The position numbers were made by a program, and so were the translations under genes. DNA of 64,000 nucleotides from Verrucomicrobiia bacterium (lineage in GTDB: Bacteria; Verrucomicrobiota; Verrucomicrobiia; Limisphaerales; DSYF01), in the NCBI GenBank assembly GCA_035765895.1, contig DASTWL010000016.1, forward strand, positions 1-64,000. The letters are read 5' to 3'. Under the pieces are notes generated by a model. The model did no database searches. It was not told where the DNA came from and saw nothing but the letters and a program-made list of their open reading frames with translations. This document shows, one piece after another, positions 561-8,677 of the stretch (position 1 is its first letter; every line of letters starts with the position of its first letter).

Positions 561-703
561 TGGAGCGCCGGTCCCTGCCCGGCTTTGGATTTGGCAAACG
601 CCCCAAGCCGGCAACATGTCGGCGCTCCCCCGGGAGTGCAGCCCGTAAAACTTTCACTGGTTTTCGTGTGTTTCGCGTATGCCGAGGTTAAACTTCAAAG
701 CTC

Positions 704-3403
704 ATGGCTGAACGCCTTCCCATTTACGAGATAGAGCAGGAGCTGGTTGCGCGGTTGCGCACGCAGCGACGGCTCATCGTTTCCGCGCCCACTGGTTCCG
801 GCAAATCCACGCAGGTGCCGCAGATGCTGCTCGACCACGGACTCCTCGGGAACGGGCAGGTCGTGGTGTTGCAGCCGCGCCGGCTGGCGACACGCATGCT
901 GGCGGCGCGTGTGGCGTCGGAGCGGAAGGCGGAACTCGGTCGCGAGGTCGGTTATCAGATCCGGCTGGAGAACGTGACAAGCGAGGCGACGCGCATCCGC
1001 TTCGTGACGGAGGGTGTGTTGCTGCGTCAGATGGTGAACGACCGCACGTTGCGCGGCGTGTCGGCGTTGATCTTCGATGAGTTTCACGAGCGGCATCTTT
1101 ACGGCGACATTACGCTCGCGCAGGCGTTGGATTTGCAGGAAACCGCGCGGCCGGATCTGCTGATCATCGTGATGAGCGCCACGCTGGATGCAGAGGCGTT
1201 GACAAAATACATGAGTGGTGCGCGCGGGGGGAAACCCACCCCCGACCCCTCCCCGGAGGGGATCGCGCTGAATGGCTTGGGTGGTTCAAAGTCACCTGCC
1301 GCGTCCGAATGCCGAAATCCAGTTCCCCTCCTTGGAGGGGTTAGGGGTGGGTTCGGCTGCTCCGTCCTTCAATCCGAAGGCCGCACTTTTCCAGTGGACA
1401 TCCAATACGCTGACTCACCGAGCTACGCGGACAAGCGGCCGGCGTGGGAACAGGCGGCGGATGCGTTCATCCACTTCGTGCAATCCGGCGGACAAGGCGA
1501 CGTGCTGGTGTTCATGCCGGGCGGCTTCGAGATTTCGCAAACCATCCAGACCATCCGCAACTGCGACGAATCGCGCGGCTGGGTGCTGCTTCCGTTGCAC
1601 GGCGAATTGCCGCCGCGCGATCAAGACGCCGCCGTAGCGCGTTACGAGCAACGCAAGGTTGTCGTCGCGACGAACGTGGCGGAAACCTCGCTGACGATTG
1701 ATGGCGTGCGCTGCGTCATCGACAGCGGGCTCGCGCGCATCTCGCGTTATGATTCCCAGCGCGGTATCAACACGCTGCTCATCGAGAAGATCAGCCGTGC
1801 CTCATCAGATCAACGTGCCGGTCGCGCCGGACGAACGGCACCGGGCGTGTGCTTGCGGCTGTGGTCGCAAGACGAACACGCGCATCGTGCAGCGCAGGAA
1901 CTGCCGGAGGTGAAGCGGCTCGATTTGTCGGAGGTGGTGCTGACGTTGAAGGCGGCCGGTGTGGAGGATTTGAGGAAATTCCGCTGGCTGGAGCCGCCGG
2001 ATGAACAGGCGCTCGCACATGCGGAGGAGTTGCTGACGGACCTTGGCGCGCTCTCGACGGAACACGGCACGCGCGATACGCAACGCGCCCTTATCACTCC
2101 CATCGGGCGCAAGATGCTGGCGTTTCCGCTGCACCCGCGGTATGCGCGGATGCTCCTCGCGGCGCAGGATTTCGGCTGCGTGCAACAGGCGTGCCTTGTG
2201 GCGGCGCTCACGCAGGGACGCGATTTGCTGCTGCGCAACGTGGACCGCGACACTACGAACTATCGCGAGGATTTGCTGGGTGATCGTGCGGCGAGTGATT
2301 TCTTCATCCTGATGCGCGCGTGGAATTACGCGGCGAAGAATGAATTCCGCATCGAAGCCTGCCGGCGCATGGGCATCCACATGGTCACGGCTCGGCAGGT
2401 CGGGCCGTTGTTTCAGCAGTTCCTCGACATCGCCAAGCGCGAGGGGCTCGACATCGCGCCGCGCGAAGTGCCGGATGAGGCGTTGCAGAAGTGTTTGCTC
2501 ATCGGCTTCAGCGATCGCGTGGCGCGGCGGCTCGATTCGGGGACGCTGCGTTGCGAACTCGTTCACGGTCGTCGCGGTGTGCTGGCGCGGGAAAGCACGG
2601 TGCAGAAGGCGCCGTTGTTTGTCGTCGCGGAGATTCGTGAAGTTGGCGGGCGCGATGGCGACGTGAACACGATTCTTTCGCTGGCCACCGCCATCGAGGA
2701 GAAGTGGCTGCACGAATTTTTCCCCGAGGACATGCAGCGCGATCTGCACACGCAGTTCGATGCGACGCAAAAGCGCGTGATGGCGGCGGAGCTGATCAAG
2801 TTCCGCGGGCTCGCGTTGTCGGCAAAGCGCGTGGATCCGCCACCGGCGGACGCCGCAGCGCGATTGTTGACGGATGAAGTGATGGCGGGGCGATTGAAGC
2901 TGACCGAATGGGATGAATCCGTTGACCAGTGGATTCAGCGGCTGGCGTTGCTGGCGCAGCATTGCCCGGAGTTGCAGCTCACGCCGATTGCGGAGGACGA
3001 CCGGCGCGCCATCGTGGAGCAGGTTTGCCTCGGCGCGGTGGGCTACAAAGACATCAAGGACAAGCCCGTGAAGCCGGTGGTGCAAGGCTGGTTGAGCCAC
3101 GCGCAGCGCGAGTTGCTGGACAAGCACGCGCCGGAACGGCTGAACCTGCCGAACGGCAAGACGCCGAAGGTGACTTACGAGCCGGGTCGCGCGCCGTTTG
3201 TTTCGATGCGCATCCAGGAACTCTACGACGTGATGCAGACGCCGAAGATCGCGATGGGCCGCGTGCCGGTGGTGGTGCACATCCTGACGCCGGGTTTCAA
3301 GCCGGTGCAGGTGACGCAAGATCTCGGCGGCTTCTGGCGCGAGCATTATCCGAAGCTGAAATCGGAATTGCAGCGGCGGTATCCGAAGCACGAGTGGCGG
3401 TGA
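704..3403 (+). CDS. hrpB: HrpB-type ATP-dependent RNA helicase with in-frame insertion
   Basis: An 899-residue DEAH/RHA-family helicase. Walker A GSGKST is at residues 31-36. The Walker B box reads DEFH (125-128) in the context DEFHERH. Motif III MSATLD starts at 157. Motif VI, DQRAGRAGRTAPG, lies near 365-377. The C-terminal third carries the HrpB-specific domain and ends with a tryptophan/YPKH.W tail that distinguishes HrpB from HrpA. The protein is longer than the usual 800-850 residues. Much of the excess lies at about 174-220, between the SAT motif and the conserved EGRTFPV segment, and is low-complexity Gly/Pro/Ser sequence encoded by a palindromic repeat (1233-1353). The insertion keeps the frame open and sits on the surface linker after motif III, so the enzyme may still work. 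HrpB is cytoplasmic; its biological role is poorly defined in bacteria. The ATG at 704 places Walker A where expected. Confidence 0.9.
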   Translation: MAERLPIYEIEQELVARLRTQRRLIVSAPTGSGKSTQVPQMLLDHGLLGNGQVVVLQPRRLATRMLAARVASERKAELGREVGYQIRLENVTSEATRIRFVTEGVLLRQMVNDRTLRGVSALIFDEFHERHLYGDITLAQALDLQETARPDLLIIVMSATLDAEALTKYMSGARGGKPTPDPSPEGIALNGLGGSKSPAASECRNPVPLLGGVRGGFGCSVLQSEGRTFPVDIQYADSPSYADKRPAWEQAADAFIHFVQSGGQGDVLVFMPGGFEISQTIQTIRNCDESRGWVLLPLHGELPPRDQDAAVARYEQRKVVVATNVAETSLTIDGVRCVIDSGLARISRYDSQRGINTLLIEKISRASSDQRAGRAGRTAPGVCLRLWSQDEHAHRAAQELPEVKRLDLSEVVLTLKAAGVEDLRKFRWLEPPDEQALAHAEELLTDLGALSTEHGTRDTQRALITPIGRKMLAFPLHPRYARMLLAAQDFGCVQQACLVAALTQGRDLLLRNVDRDTTNYREDLLGDRAASDFFILMRAWNYAAKNEFRIEACRRMGIHMVTARQVGPLFQQFLDIAKREGLDIAPREVPDEALQKCLLIGFSDRVARRLDSGTLRCELVHGRRGVLARESTVQKAPLFVVAEIREVGGRDGDVNTILSLATAIEEKWLHEFFPEDMQRDLHTQFDATQKRVMAAELIKFRGLALSAKRVDPPPADAAARLLTDEVMAGRLKLTEWDESVDQWIQRLALLAQHCPELQLTPIAEDDRRAIVEQVCLGAVGYKDIKDKPVKPVVQGWLSHAQRELLDKHAPERLNLPNGKTPKVTYEPGRAPFVSMRIQELYDVMQTPKIAMGRVPVVVHILTPGFKPVQVTQDLGGFWREHYPKLKSELQRRYPKHEWR
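1233..1353. repeat. Palindromic MITE/REP-like element inside hrpB
   Basis: Two arms about 30 bp long lie in inverted orientation. The left arm (from 1233) reads aacccacccccgacccctcc, and the reverse complement of the right arm (ending 1353) reads aacccacccctaacccctcc. Each arm also folds on itself (cccctccccggagggg at 1246-1261, cccctccttggagggg at 1325-1340). The roughly 60 bp between the arms have no evident coding logic. The element encodes about 40 helicase residues that HrpB proteins do not normally have. No target-site duplication can be assigned with certainty. This is a short non-autonomous palindromic repeat that probably has many copies elsewhere in the genome; no second copy was noticed in this window. 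Confidence 0.75.
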
Positions 3404-3761
3404 CTGCGCTGACCACCATGGCCGGTGGCCGTGTGGCTTGCTGAAAATAAAGTCCGTTGATGAAGGTCATTCGGAAATCCACTGCCAGGGTGTTTCTTGA
3501 TCCGTGACCGCAGCTGGATTCTTCCCGTCCACGCAAGACAACGCTGCCCAAAAAGCGAGCAACGTGGGCGCTTCGCAATTTTGAACCGCCGCCATTTTCT
3601 CTTCTTTGCAATTGTGAGCCGGCTGATTGGCGTGGCGATGTCACCTTTCGTCTGCATCGCACAGGACGGGGCTTTTTGGTGATTCGCCGCGGCGGTCCGG
3701 CGTTCGCGCCGGCGCGAAACCGGGCGGGGTAACAGGGTGCGAGAGAGTTTTTTGGGGCACG
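3404..3761. other. Intergenic region between hrpB and the repeat protein
   Basis: About 360 bp without a convincing gene. Short open frames here lack codon bias, a ribosome site and recognisable motifs. The only clear signal is the sigma-54-type promoter at its right end. Any upstream activator site would be expected in this stretch, but I see no strong inverted repeat. Confidence 0.5.
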
Positions 3762-3777
3762 TGGCATGCCAGTTGCA
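3762..3777 (+). promoter_or_regulatory. Sigma-54 (-24/-12) promoter
   Basis: The sequence TGGCATGCCAGTTGCA matches the RpoN consensus TGGCAYRNNNNTTGCW at every defined position, with the correct spacing between the GG and GC elements. The predicted transcription start is near 3788, giving a 5' leader of about 45 nt before the ATG at 3833. This supports that ATG and excludes an upstream GTG at 3737, which would lie before the promoter. Sigma-54 promoters need an enhancer-binding activator, which is not encoded nearby. Confidence 0.7.
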
Positions 3778-3832
3778 AAATGCGCTGTGGGGCCGTCAGC
3801 CAGAACCGGCTGAATCGGTCCGAGCGCCGAAA

Positions 3833-6800
3833 ATGACCACATTTCAAAACCTGGTTCGAGCCGGTCTGCGGGGAATCCCCATGGCGGCTCTGTTGACGTT
3901 CACCCTGGGTGTGCGCGCCACGGCCGCCAACGTCACGCTGGCGTGGGATCCAAGCACGGATGCGACTGTCACAGGGTATCGACTTTATTATGGCACCGCC
4001 TCGCGGGCATATACGGGCAACGTGGCGGTCAACGCCGGCACCACGTCGGCCACGGTTTCCAACCTGGCGATCGGGCAGACGTATTATTTCGCCGCCACCT
4101 CGTTGAGTTCGGCGGGACAGGAAAGTGCGTATTCCGGCGAGGTTTCCTACATGGCGCCGGCGGCCAATTCCGCGCCGGTGGCCAATGCGCAAAGCGTCAG
4201 CACGCCCGAAGACACGGCCAGGACCATCACGCTGAGCGCCACCGATGCGGATGGCAATCCGCTAAGTTACGCGGTGGTGACCGGACCGGCGCACGGCACG
4301 TTGAGCGGCGCTGCGCCCAATCTCACCTACACCCCGGCGGCTAATTACAACGGCGCTGACAGCTTCACCTTCAAAGCCAATGACGGGACGGTTGATTCCG
4401 CGCCGGCCACCGTTTCCCTCGCGATTACGCCCGTCAACGACGCGCCGGTGGCCAACGGGCAAAACGTGACGACGGCAGAGGACACGGCCAGAACGATTAC
4501 TCTGACCGGTTCTGATGTGGACGGCAACGCGCTCACCTATGCGGTGGTGGCCGCGCCGGCGCATGGCACGTTAAGCGGCACCGCGCCGAATCTGGTTTAC
4601 ACGCCGGCGGCCAACTACAACGGCAGTGATAGTTTCACGTTCCGGGTCAACGATGGCACGGTCAACTCGGCGACGGCCACGGTTTCCATCACGGTCACGC
4701 CCGTCAATGACGCGCCGGTGGCCAACGCGCAAAGTGTGAGCACGCCGGAAGACACCGCGAAGGCGATTACGTTGACGGGTTCCGATGTGGACGGCAATGC
4801 GTTGACCTATGCGGTGGTGACCGGACCGGCGCATGGCACGTTAAGCGGCACCGCACCAAATCTGGTTTACACGCCGGCGGCCAACTACAACGGCAGCGAC
4901 AGCTTCACGTTCCGGGTCAACGATGGCTCCCTGAATTCTGCCAATGCGACCGTTTCCCTGACGGTGGCGCCGGTGAACGACGCGCCCGTGGCCATGGCCC
5001 AAAGCGTGACGACGGCCGAGGACACGGCCAAGGCGATTACCCTGAACGGCAGCGACGTGGACGGCGATGCGTTGACTTACGCGGTCAGCACGCCGCCGGC
5101 GCACGGCACCTTGAGCGGCACCGCGCCGAATCTGACCTACACGCCGGCGTCCAGCTACTCGGGCAGCGACAGTTTTGCCTTCCGTGTCAACGACGGGCTG
5201 ACGAATTCCAGCCCGGCGACCGTGGCGATCACCATCACGGCCGTCAATCATGCGCCGGTGGCCAACGCCCAGACCATCACCACGCCCGAGGACACCGCCA
5301 AGGCGATTACGCTGACGGCAAGCGATGCGGACGGGGACAGCCTGACTTACACGATTGTCACCCCGCCGGCGCACGGAAGCCTGTCCGGCACCGCACCCAA
5401 TCTGACCTACACGCCGGCGACGAATTACAGCGGCGCGGACAGTTTCTGGTTCAAGGCCAACGATGGCACGACGGATTCCGCCCTTGCGGTGGTGTCCATC
5501 AACATCACCGCGGTAAACCACGCGCCCGTGGCGAATGCGCAGAGTGTGACCACCGCGGAAGACACGGCGAAGGTCATTGTCCTGACCGCCACCGACGCGG
5601 ATGGCAACAATCTGACTTACACGGTGGTCACGCCGCCGGCGCACGGAAGCCTGTCCGGCATCGCGCCCAATCTGACTTACACGCCGGCCGCCAACTACAA
5701 CGGCGCGGACAGCTTCACGTTCAAGGCGAACGACGGCACCGTGGACTCCACCGTGGCCGCGGTGGCGTTGACCGTGACGCCCGTGAACGACGCGCCCGTG
5801 GCCAGCGCCCAAAGCGTAAGCCTGACGGAGGACGCCACCAAAGCCATCACGTTGAGTGCTGCCGACGTGGATGGCGATGCGTTGAGCTACACGATTGTGA
5901 CGCCGCCGGCACACGGCACGCTGAGCGGCACGGCGCCGAACATGGTTTACACGCCGGCGACAAATTACAGCGGCGCGGACAGCTTCTGGTTCAAGGCGAA
6001 CGACGGCACGGCTGATTCCGCGACCGCCGTGGTGTCCCTCAACATCACCGCCGTCAATCACGCGCCGGTGGCCAGCGCGCAAAGCGTGACCACCCCGGAA
6101 GACGCGGCGAAGGCGATCACCCTGGCCGCCACGGATGTGGACGGCGACACGCTGAGCTACACCATTGTGGCACCGCCGGCGCACGGTAAACTGACGGGCA
6201 CGGCGCCGAACGTGATTTACACCCCGACGACCAATTACAACGGCTCGGACAGTTTCACGTTCAAGGCGAACGACGGCACGGTGGACTCCTCAACGGTGGC
6301 CGTGTTTGTGACCGTGACGCCGGTCAACGATGCGCCGGTGGCCAGCGCGCAAACGGTGACGCTTGCGGAAGATTCCAGCAAGGCCATCACGCTGTCCGCG
6401 ACCGATGTCGAAGGCGATGCGTTGACCTACACGATTGTGACGCCGCCGGCGCACGGCACGTTGAGCGGCACGGCGCCGAATGTGGTTTACACACCGGCGA
6501 CGAATTACAGCGGTGCGGACAGCTTCTGGTTCAAGGCGAACGACGGCGCGGCCGATTCGGGCCTGGCGGTGGTCTCCCTCAACATCACCGCGGTCAACCA
6601 TGCGCCCATTGCCAGCGCCCAGAGCGCGACCACTTTGGAAGACACGGCCACGGCCATCACGCTCGCGGCGACCGACGTGGACGGCGACACGTTGACCTAC
6701 ACGATTGTGACGCCGCCGGCGCACGGCACCTTGTCCGGCACGCCGCCCAATGTGACCTACAAACCGGCCACGAACTACAACGGCGCCGACAGCTTTGCGT

Positions 6801-8677
6801 TCAAGGCCAACGACGGCACCGTGGATTCCGCCACCGCCATGGTGGGCCTGACGGTGACGCCGGTGAACGATCCGCCGACGCTGAACCCGATTGCGAATGT
6901 AACCGTCAATCAGAATGCCAGCGCGGCGACCGTGTCGCTGGCGGGCATCAGTTCCGGCGCCGCCAATGAAGCGCAGACACTCACGGTGACCGCCTCGTCG
7001 AGCAATCCCGGCGTCGTGCCGACGCCAGGCATCGCCTACATGAGCCCCAACGCGACCGGTTCACTGACCTTCACGCCGGTGGCGGATGCCAGCGGCACCG
7101 CGGTAATCACCGTGACAGTCAGTGATGGCCAGAGTGAGAACAGCACGGTGACGCGGTCGTTTACCGTGACGGTGAACGCGGTCGCCAGCCCGATCACACT
7201 GGATCCGATCGCCAGCGTGTCCGTGGATGAAAACTCCGGGACGCAGACCGTGCCGCTTTCCGGCATCAGCAGCACGTCCACCACGACCCCTTACACCACG
7301 ACCACCCGGATACGCACCGGCAAGACGAGCACAAAGCTGACGGTAACGGCGACCTCCAGCGACACGAGCCTCATTCCGACGCCCGTGGTCAGTTACAGCA
7401 GCCCGAATTCGACCGGCACACTCAGTTTCGCGCCTGTCGCCGGCAAGTCCGGTTCGGCCATCATCACCGTGACGGTCACCGACGGGAGCAATCCGCCCAC
7501 GAGCCGTTCGTTCATGGTGACCGTGAATGCCGTCAACGCGCCGCCGACGTTGGATCCGCTGGGCAATCTGAACGTGGCCGATGACGCAGGGCCGCAGACC
7601 GTGACGTTGACCGGCATCACCGCCGGGCCAAACGAATCGCAGTCGCTTACGGTTACCGCGACCTCCAGCAATCCGAGCTTCGTGCCCACGCCCAAGGTGA
7701 ATTACACCAGCCCGAACACCACCGGCACCCTGACGTTCACGCCCACGACGAACACGAGCGGTTCGACCATCATCACGGTCACGGTGAACGATGGCCAGCC
7801 GCAGAACAGCACGGTGACGCGCGCCTTCACGGTCAACGTCTATTCGGGGCAAATGCCGCCGACGGTGTCCCTGACGTCGCCCAGCTACGGCGCGACCTTC
7901 ACCGCGCCAGCCAAGATCAGTCTCGCGGCGACGGTCAACCCCAACGGTCACACGATCGCCAAGGTCCAGTTTTACGCTGATGGAACGCTGGTCGGCGAAG
8001 CCGCCAGCGCCCCTTACGCGGCGGATTGGGCGGCGACTGGCGTGGGCGCCTACAACCTGACCGCCCGCGTGCTTTATGAGTCAAACGGTTCGGTCGATTC
8101 GCAGCCGGTGAAGGTGACGCTGACCACGTTGCCCGCCCCGTGGGAAACAGCGGACTTGGGCAGTGGCATCGTCGCGGGCGACGCCGTATTCACCAACGGC
8201 ACGTTCGTGGTCACGGGCGCCGGCAACATTGGCGGCACGGCGGACGACTTCCGTTACGTTTATCAGACCTTGAGCGGGGACGGCGACATCACCGTTGAAT
8301 TGAAGTCGGCGGCCCTGAGCTCGCCGGCCGGCCGCGTGGGTGTGATGATCCGCGAATCATTGGCCAATGATGCCAAGGCGGCCTTCGTGGGGCTGGACAG
8401 CAACGGCACCTGCCACACGATCTGGCGGACCGCCACCGGCGGTGACAGCAATGACAGCACGCCCGCGATGAAAGCCACCTCCGACCTCTGGGTGCGGTTG
8501 GTCCGCTCGGGCAACCGGCTTACTGCTTACTACTCGACCAACGGCCGGCGCTGGAGTGGTGCCGGCAACCAGACGATTTCCATGGCTTCCAACATCTACA
8601 TCGGCCTCGCCGTGGCGTCGGGCAACACGGACACGCCGGTGGTGGCCAATTTTGGCACGCCCGTGGTGACGCCTTGA
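3833..8677 (+). CDS. Giant secreted cadherin-like repeat protein
   Basis: A 1614-residue exported protein. The first 25 or so residues form a signal peptide (AALLTFTLGV core, cleavage near ATA/AN). Next come a fibronectin-III-like domain (about 27-110, LYYG and YYFAATS strands), then ten tandem 90-residue cadherin/VCBS-like repeats (112-1011) with the pattern EDTAK.ITL..D.DGD.LTY, PAHGTLSG, and NDGT. Three repeats of roughly 110 residues (P.LDPI...V) follow, then an Ig-like domain (about 1341-1435, KVQFYADGTLVGEA), and a C-terminal beta-sandwich (about 1437-1614, GRVGVMIRESL) resembling DUF1349/LamG-type concanavalin folds. It is probably a surface or extracellular adhesin or matrix protein. 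No cell-wall anchor or PEP-CTERM motif is visible. It lies 25 bp before the next gene and probably shares its sigma-54 promoter. Specific ligands cannot be told. Confidence 0.85.
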   Translation: MTTFQNLVRAGLRGIPMAALLTFTLGVRATAANVTLAWDPSTDATVTGYRLYYGTASRAYTGNVAVNAGTTSATVSNLAIGQTYYFAATSLSSAGQESAYSGEVSYMAPAANSAPVANAQSVSTPEDTARTITLSATDADGNPLSYAVVTGPAHGTLSGAAPNLTYTPAANYNGADSFTFKANDGTVDSAPATVSLAITPVNDAPVANGQNVTTAEDTARTITLTGSDVDGNALTYAVVAAPAHGTLSGTAPNLVYTPAANYNGSDSFTFRVNDGTVNSATATVSITVTPVNDAPVANAQSVSTPEDTAKAITLTGSDVDGNALTYAVVTGPAHGTLSGTAPNLVYTPAANYNGSDSFTFRVNDGSLNSANATVSLTVAPVNDAPVAMAQSVTTAEDTAKAITLNGSDVDGDALTYAVSTPPAHGTLSGTAPNLTYTPASSYSGSDSFAFRVNDGLTNSSPATVAITITAVNHAPVANAQTITTPEDTAKAITLTASDADGDSLTYTIVTPPAHGSLSGTAPNLTYTPATNYSGADSFWFKANDGTTDSALAVVSINITAVNHAPVANAQSVTTAEDTAKVIVLTATDADGNNLTYTVVTPPAHGSLSGIAPNLTYTPAANYNGADSFTFKANDGTVDSTVAAVALTVTPVNDAPVASAQSVSLTEDATKAITLSAADVDGDALSYTIVTPPAHGTLSGTAPNMVYTPATNYSGADSFWFKANDGTADSATAVVSLNITAVNHAPVASAQSVTTPEDAAKAITLAATDVDGDTLSYTIVAPPAHGKLTGTAPNVIYTPTTNYNGSDSFTFKANDGTVDSSTVAVFVTVTPVNDAPVASAQTVTLAEDSSKAITLSATDVEGDALTYTIVTPPAHGTLSGTAPNVVYTPATNYSGADSFWFKANDGAADSGLAVVSLNITAVNHAPIASAQSATTLEDTATAITLAATDVDGDTLTYTIVTPPAHGTLSGTPPNVTYKPATNYNGADSFAFKANDGTVDSATAMVGLTVTPVNDPPTLNPIANVTVNQNASAATVSLAGISSGAANEAQTLTVTASSSNPGVVPTPGIAYMSPNATGSLTFTPVADASGTAVITVTVSDGQSENSTVTRSFTVTVNAVASPITLDPIASVSVDENSGTQTVPLSGISSTSTTTPYTTTTRIRTGKTSTKLTVTATSSDTSLIPTPVVSYSSPNSTGTLSFAPVAGKSGSAIITVTVTDGSNPPTSRSFMVTVNAVNAPPTLDPLGNLNVADDAGPQTVTLTGITAGPNESQSLTVTATSSNPSFVPTPKVNYTSPNTTGTLTFTPTTNTSGSTIITVTVNDGQPQNSTVTRAFTVNVYSGQMPPTVSLTSPSYGATFTAPAKISLAATVNPNGHTIAKVQFYADGTLVGEAASAPYAADWAATGVGAYNLTARVLYESNGSVDSQPVKVTLTTLPAPWETADLGSGIVAGDAVFTNGTFVVTGAGNIGGTADDFRYVYQTLSGDGDITVELKSAALSSPAGRVGVMIRESLANDAKAAFVGLDSNGTCHTIWRTATGGDSNDSTPAMKATSDLWVRLVRSGNRLTAYYSTNGRRWSGAGNQTISMASNIYIGLAVASGNTDTPVVANFGTPVVTP
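4166..6865 (+). repeat. Ten exact-length 270-bp tandem coding repeats
   Basis: Repeat starts fall every 270 bp (4166, 4436 and so on to 6866), with no insertion or deletion over 2700 bp. Each unit codes one 90-residue cadherin-like domain beginning N(D/H/S)AP(V/I)A. Units 5-10 form three 540-bp pairs: the odd units end in NITAV and contain FWFKANDG, the even units end in TVTPV with FTFKANDG or FAFKANDG. This points to expansion of a two-domain block. Confidence 0.9.

Follow-up and report, generated by a model that had tools for sequence, protein, structure and literature searches.

Most known palindromes that encode protein come from Rickettsia; outside that genus, REP cases are scattered. 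The Rickettsia palindromic elements (RPEs; Ogata et al. 2000/2002) are described as dispersed palindromic repeats of about 100–150 nt, which have entered a large number of unrelated, conserved genes in frame, encode a recurrent peptide, and are usually tolerated (PMC2229807, PMC10969869). The GTAG/CGTC-tagged REPs found inside genes are short palindromes, often arranged as inverted dimers, and inside the genes of repair and RNA enzymes they encode tens of residues (PMC3733652, BMC Genomics 2013). Intragenic GTAG repeats are most numerous in Opitutus terrae (Verrucomicrobia), with RNA helicases among their targets, and in the recB genes of two Xanthomonas species REPs of different kinds occupy nearly the same position (PMC3733652). 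REPINs, which are mobilised by RAYT transposases, were analysed in extragenic space (PMC3116915, PLoS Genet 2011). The kind of event described below is thus already known, both from the Rickettsia elements and from intragenic REPs, including those of Opitutus.

In the window, that is, the whole 64,000-nt stretch of DNA analysed here, a palindromic repeat lies within hrpB (704–3403, + strand), which encodes an 899-residue ATP-dependent DEAH-type RNA helicase. The ORF was assigned to HrpB by its DEAD/DEAH core combined with HA2 and HrpB_C (Pfam DEAD, Helicase_C, HA2, HrpB_C), and its best solved match by sequence is E. coli HrpB (6eud), with which the fold agrees. The insert is a palindromic doublet of about 41 codons (1233–1353, no strand assigned), consisting of two inverted arms and a 61-nt spacer (1263–1323, + strand). 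The left arm, AACCCACCCCCGACCCCTCCCCGGAGGGGA (1233–1262, + strand), reads KPTPDPSPEG in the hrpB frame, and the right arm, its inverted copy (1324–1353, − strand), reads PLLGGVRGGF. The arms, 30 nt each and 61 nt apart, are 87% complementary, and each contains a perfect 7-bp short palindrome (CCCCTCC-CC-GGAGGGG at 1246–1261 and CCCCTCC-TT-GGAGGGG at 1325–1340). A preliminary description of this DNA had placed an element with inverted arms of about 30 bp, each itself a hairpin, in frame in an HrpB helicase between motif III and EGRTFPV; these particulars were all confirmed, the insert lying between MSATL and SEGRTFPV and adding about 41 residues with no frame break. The 136-nt stretch around the doublet folds as DNA with a z of −3.0, and two of 200 shuffles folded as well. 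Terminal inverted repeats, as expected of a MITE, are present in the hrpB doublet and in the copies extracted from the genome, and Rfam gave no match within window positions 600–3600. Adjoining hrpB, a 1646-residue ORF (3737–8677) is built from numerous similar repeats, each some 100 residues long (NAPVANAQSV...YTPAANYNG...), and probably encodes a large surface or secreted protein.

An AlphaFold model of HrpB, based on an alignment with 49 relatives, gave a mean pLDDT of 90.8. The insert corresponds to about residues 177–217, and residues 175–213, flanked by a helix (163–171) and a strand (220–223), form the sole segment with a pLDDT below 50. Thus, the structural check that had been proposed for an external loop places the insert in a predicted disordered loop. 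A smaller dip appears near residues 451–460, in the second length-variable linker of HrpB (DLGAL to ITPIGR; 2054–2092, + strand), which is repeat-free in the window.

The repeat is dispersed in the host genome. In the host assembly (G000; 4.64 Mb in 96 contigs), the pattern CCCCTCCNNGGAGGGG occurs with at most one mismatch at 42 places, compared with 0 for a reversed control pattern; since CCCCTCCNNGGAGGGG is its own reverse complement, the 42 matches per strand represent 42 places. The palindrome is therefore not single-copy, and the preliminary description was right to expect a dispersed repeat. A BLAST search of the same assembly returned 67 pieces matching the query. The arm common to the extracted copies is roughly AACCCACCCC-TGA-CCCCTCC-NN-GGAGGGG-AACTG, and the copies occur as single arms or as inverted doublets, in which the palindrome starts are usually 46 or 49 nt apart. 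A dispersed short imperfect palindrome, often in inverted doublets, is the form taken by REPs and REPINs. The palindrome-to-palindrome distance in the hrpB copy is 79 nt, as against 46–49 in the usual genomic copies, so that part of its 61-nt spacer may have another origin. Among 97 genomes of the host's order, the longer arm pattern is present in 8, with many copies only in the host, G028, and G054, and a search for its exact form in 388 genomes sampled from the phylum found it in 4. This patchy distribution is as expected of mobile or fast-turnover repeats. In G054, a urease gamma-beta fusion contains the CCCCTCC family in its linker, and an Mfd-like protein also contains it (L253, L254).

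The coding position of the hrpB copy, which had been considered unusual, proved not to be so: at least 12 copies, spread over 11 host genes, are in frame when counted only in ORFs with family support, chance ORFs being left out. Besides the one in hrpB, coding copies are found in the genes for GatB (two), ValS, KsgA, a squalene/phytoene synthase (SQS), a histidine kinase, an alpha-2-macroglobulin (A2M), a DUF58 protein, a solute-binding protein (SBP), EboE, and an ankyrin protein (Ank); the ankyrin copy, which is close to the N-terminus, is the least certain of them. The two in-frame copies of GatB, a core amidotransferase subunit, belong to L082:1608–3308 (contig C52). In the congener, the orthologous ValS, second GatB, and A2M sites lack the repeat and are empty or apparently empty, and the DUF58, SQS, and first GatB sites hold other sequence in its place. 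The flanks at several copy sites also differ from the congener, so the insertion may have come with local change; no target-site duplication was evident at the ValS and GatB sites in this comparison. Likewise, the hrpB insert showed no target-site duplication, and no exact empty hrpB site was found in the sole congener compared. At one place in KsgA, unrelated dispersed palindromes were observed in the two congeneric genomes (L215, G001 C111:12065–12119, versus L088, host contig C13), which is the same pattern as that at HrpB.

All 12 of the host coding copies fall into one frame class, reading xPTPxPSxEG and/or PLxGGxxGG. With the stop-free frames on the gene strand taken as equally likely, the chance of a single class, as the product of 1/(open frames), is 4.3e-5, a figure that is indicative because the copies share ancestry and the genes were chosen by coding composition and family hits. 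Most host doublet spacings equal 1 modulo 3, and both arms thereby stay in the same frame class. In-frame insertion of this sort, into unrelated conserved genes in one frame, resembles the behavior of RPEs. Doublets of G028 in family-supported ORFs (HupE, DUF1361, AcrB, P-type ATPase, and malectin-type) begin in the same frame, whereas a BatA-like ORF of that genome carries three single arms in three frames, against the host bias.

The length of the HrpB loop, defined as the residues from MSATL to FPV, was compared among homologues. It is at most 30 residues in 75 of 79 named homologues from several phyla; within the host's order it is at most 30 in 22, 31–44 in 11, and at least 45 in 13 of the 46 loci. 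Judged by similarity to its HrpB neighbours, the host probably belongs to the Verrucomicrobiota; the closest named relatives carry the labels Limisphaerales, Pedosphaerales, and subdivision 3. Since the loop is short in most homologues, the segment is not common to all HrpB proteins, and the objection that every close homologue might carry it falls away: insert-free homologues are the rule outside the order and about half of the total within it. The test of mobility proposed earlier thus succeeded as regards dispersed copies and insert-free homologues, but yielded no empty hrpB orthologue in the same genus, because the sole congener (G001) has a different insert there.

The strongest result comes from the relatives: in the host's order, unrelated palindromic repeats invaded the same loop separately, with six families well supported and two partly. 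The inserts of G084 (GTAGGACAGGCG...CTAC, with dozens of copies), G096 (CTCATGCTCTTGCTC...), G093 (GCCGATCTCCTGATCGGC...), and G097 (L147; GTAGCAGCCGACG...CTAC) are dispersed in their own genomes, as is part of the G006 insert; those of the congener (GTAGGGCGGGC...) and of G005 have only weak or partial copies in theirs. Folding z values were −12.5 for G084, −11.4 for G093, −10.1 for L147, −6.2 for G096, −5.0 for G005, and −2.5 for the insert in the window, and the whole G006 insert folded no better than shuffles. The inserts of different genomes have no peptide in common. The long loops of G064, G031, G072, G029, G013, and G058 were considered as repeats and set aside, as convincing dispersed copies were not found in their own genomes; they may be decayed repeats or have another origin. 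The second linker (DLGAL to ITPxGR) also holds repeats in three relatives, namely, G084, which has its own repeat there a second time (86% identical), G097, which has yet another dispersed palindrome, and the congener, which has a repeat reading PLTPALSPSEGARE that is common in the host and G097. A second abundant palindromic family of the host, CCCCTCACCCCGGCCCTCTCCCC... (for example, at C76:7342, C73:38074, and C53:35855), reads LTPALSPSEGARE in the second HrpB linker of the congener.

As for mobilization, the leading candidate is an enzyme of the Y1/RAYT type that works in trans. The host has two NF047646 RAYT genes (C72 and C58) and an IS200-like gene at C52, the latter about 1 kb from the copy in the SQS gene. 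No arms were seen on the flanks of any Y1/RAYT gene detected in the host (contig breaks could hide one), which leaves the mobilizer a candidate. The extracted host copies lack a conserved GTAG tetranucleotide at the palindrome end: in most copies CCCCTCC is preceded by CAGTT or GGCT and GGAGGGG leads into GGGGTGGGTT, and GTAG stands beside the hairpin in one copy only, that of the SQS gene. The CGTC tag found at one end of CGTC-tagged REPs, RPE-4, and RPE-6 is also absent from the extracted copies, and hence membership in these super-families is not claimed. On contig C9 (L092, 13666–17928), two inverted single arms with similar flanks lie 4.2 kb apart; a repeat-delimited transposon between them was considered and rejected, as the enclosed ORFs match a Z1-domain protein and a methyltransferase only weakly.

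Collectively, the hrpB insert is very probably a non-autonomous palindromic repeat that is tolerated in a permissive HrpB loop, as has happened recurrently in relatives. A REPIN/MITE-like repeat with two inverted hairpin arms would have spread through the host genome, its copies presumably moved by a transposase, and one copy would have entered the hrpB linker between the motif-III helix of RecA1 and the strand leading to SEGRTFPV. The insert would owe its survival to the lack of stop codons in the frame in use, to the preserved reading frame, and to its forming only a disordered Gly/Pro/Ser-rich loop outside the folded core; HrpB presumably stays active despite it, and its effect would be close to neutral. 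The linker would then be a permissive landing pad, which unrelated repeats, in relatives, enter independently, as they do the second linker.

It is unlikely that the repeat acts instead as RNA or DNA, with its coding position incidental, for example, as an mRNA hairpin that attenuates or pauses translation or transcription or as a site for supercoiling or protein binding. Such roles have been proposed for REPs (PMC3733652), and the hairpin potential of the 136-nt stretch would suit them, but the copies stand at varied positions in unrelated genes and the frame bias points to a filter at the protein level. The same bias bears on a slightly less probable reading, in which the insert is domesticated, as the preliminary description had it, and selection keeps the loop because HrpB benefits from it (through partner or RNA binding, or regulation). 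A single frame class for all host coding copies indicates that the peptide is under some filter, the G028 doublets also start in that frame, and the HrpB linker has been lengthened repeatedly in the order. A filter against harmful peptides, however, explains the bias equally well, and the lack of a shared peptide, the insert-free half of the order relatives, and the predicted disorder of the loop all speak against a selected property. That a single site has repeatedly received inserts that differ from one another speaks for tolerance; the term "domesticated," taken to imply function, is not upheld, and tolerated selfish DNA fits the HrpB insert best.

Birth of the inverted repeat in place within hrpB, by hairpin-templated copying or replication slippage, could account for the imperfect arms, unusual spacer, and lack of a visible target duplication, but it is highly improbable and was rejected as largely refuted, since the same arms recur dozens of times elsewhere in the host genome and occur in some relatives. 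An assembly or binning artefact, conceivable in a fragmented assembly whose contigs often break at repeats, is equally implausible in view of the unbroken reading frame across the junctions and comparable events in many independent genomes.

What is new here is the repeat family, the repeated invasion of one HrpB loop by unrelated families, and the frame bias. The chances seem about even that linkers, two in HrpB and one in KsgA, are recurrent landing pads for unrelated mobile palindromes in separate lineages, with a one-frame filter, so that selfish DNA would be a continuing source of disordered loops in this order. The HrpB loop varies little in length among bacteria, yet unrelated families have inserted there in parallel in related lineages, so that one can ask whether the site is chosen by the transposase or by protein tolerance, and whether selection acts on the reading frame. 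For tests of how mobile DNA turns into protein, the loop is a natural landing pad.

Compared with the RPEs, the host family is alike in consisting of dispersed palindromes that lie in frame in unrelated conserved genes and encode a recurrent peptide. It differs in sequence and phylum and in having arms without the CGTC end; moreover, each arm is itself a hairpin, the copies are doublets or single arms, and in relatives unrelated families have likewise entered the HrpB site. With REPINs, the family shares an apparent mobile unit made of two inverted palindromes with a spacer between them, populations that are patchy and genome-specific, and a host carrying RAYT-type genes, but no repeat-flanked RAYT was found in the host. 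Like the tagged intragenic REPs, it comprises short palindromes, often inverted dimers, that code for tens of residues, but it bears neither the GTAG nor the CGTC tag, whereas the G084 and G097 inserts, with a GTAG start and a CTAC end, look typical of this class. Finally, the presence of several families at one HrpB linker goes well beyond the single example in recB.
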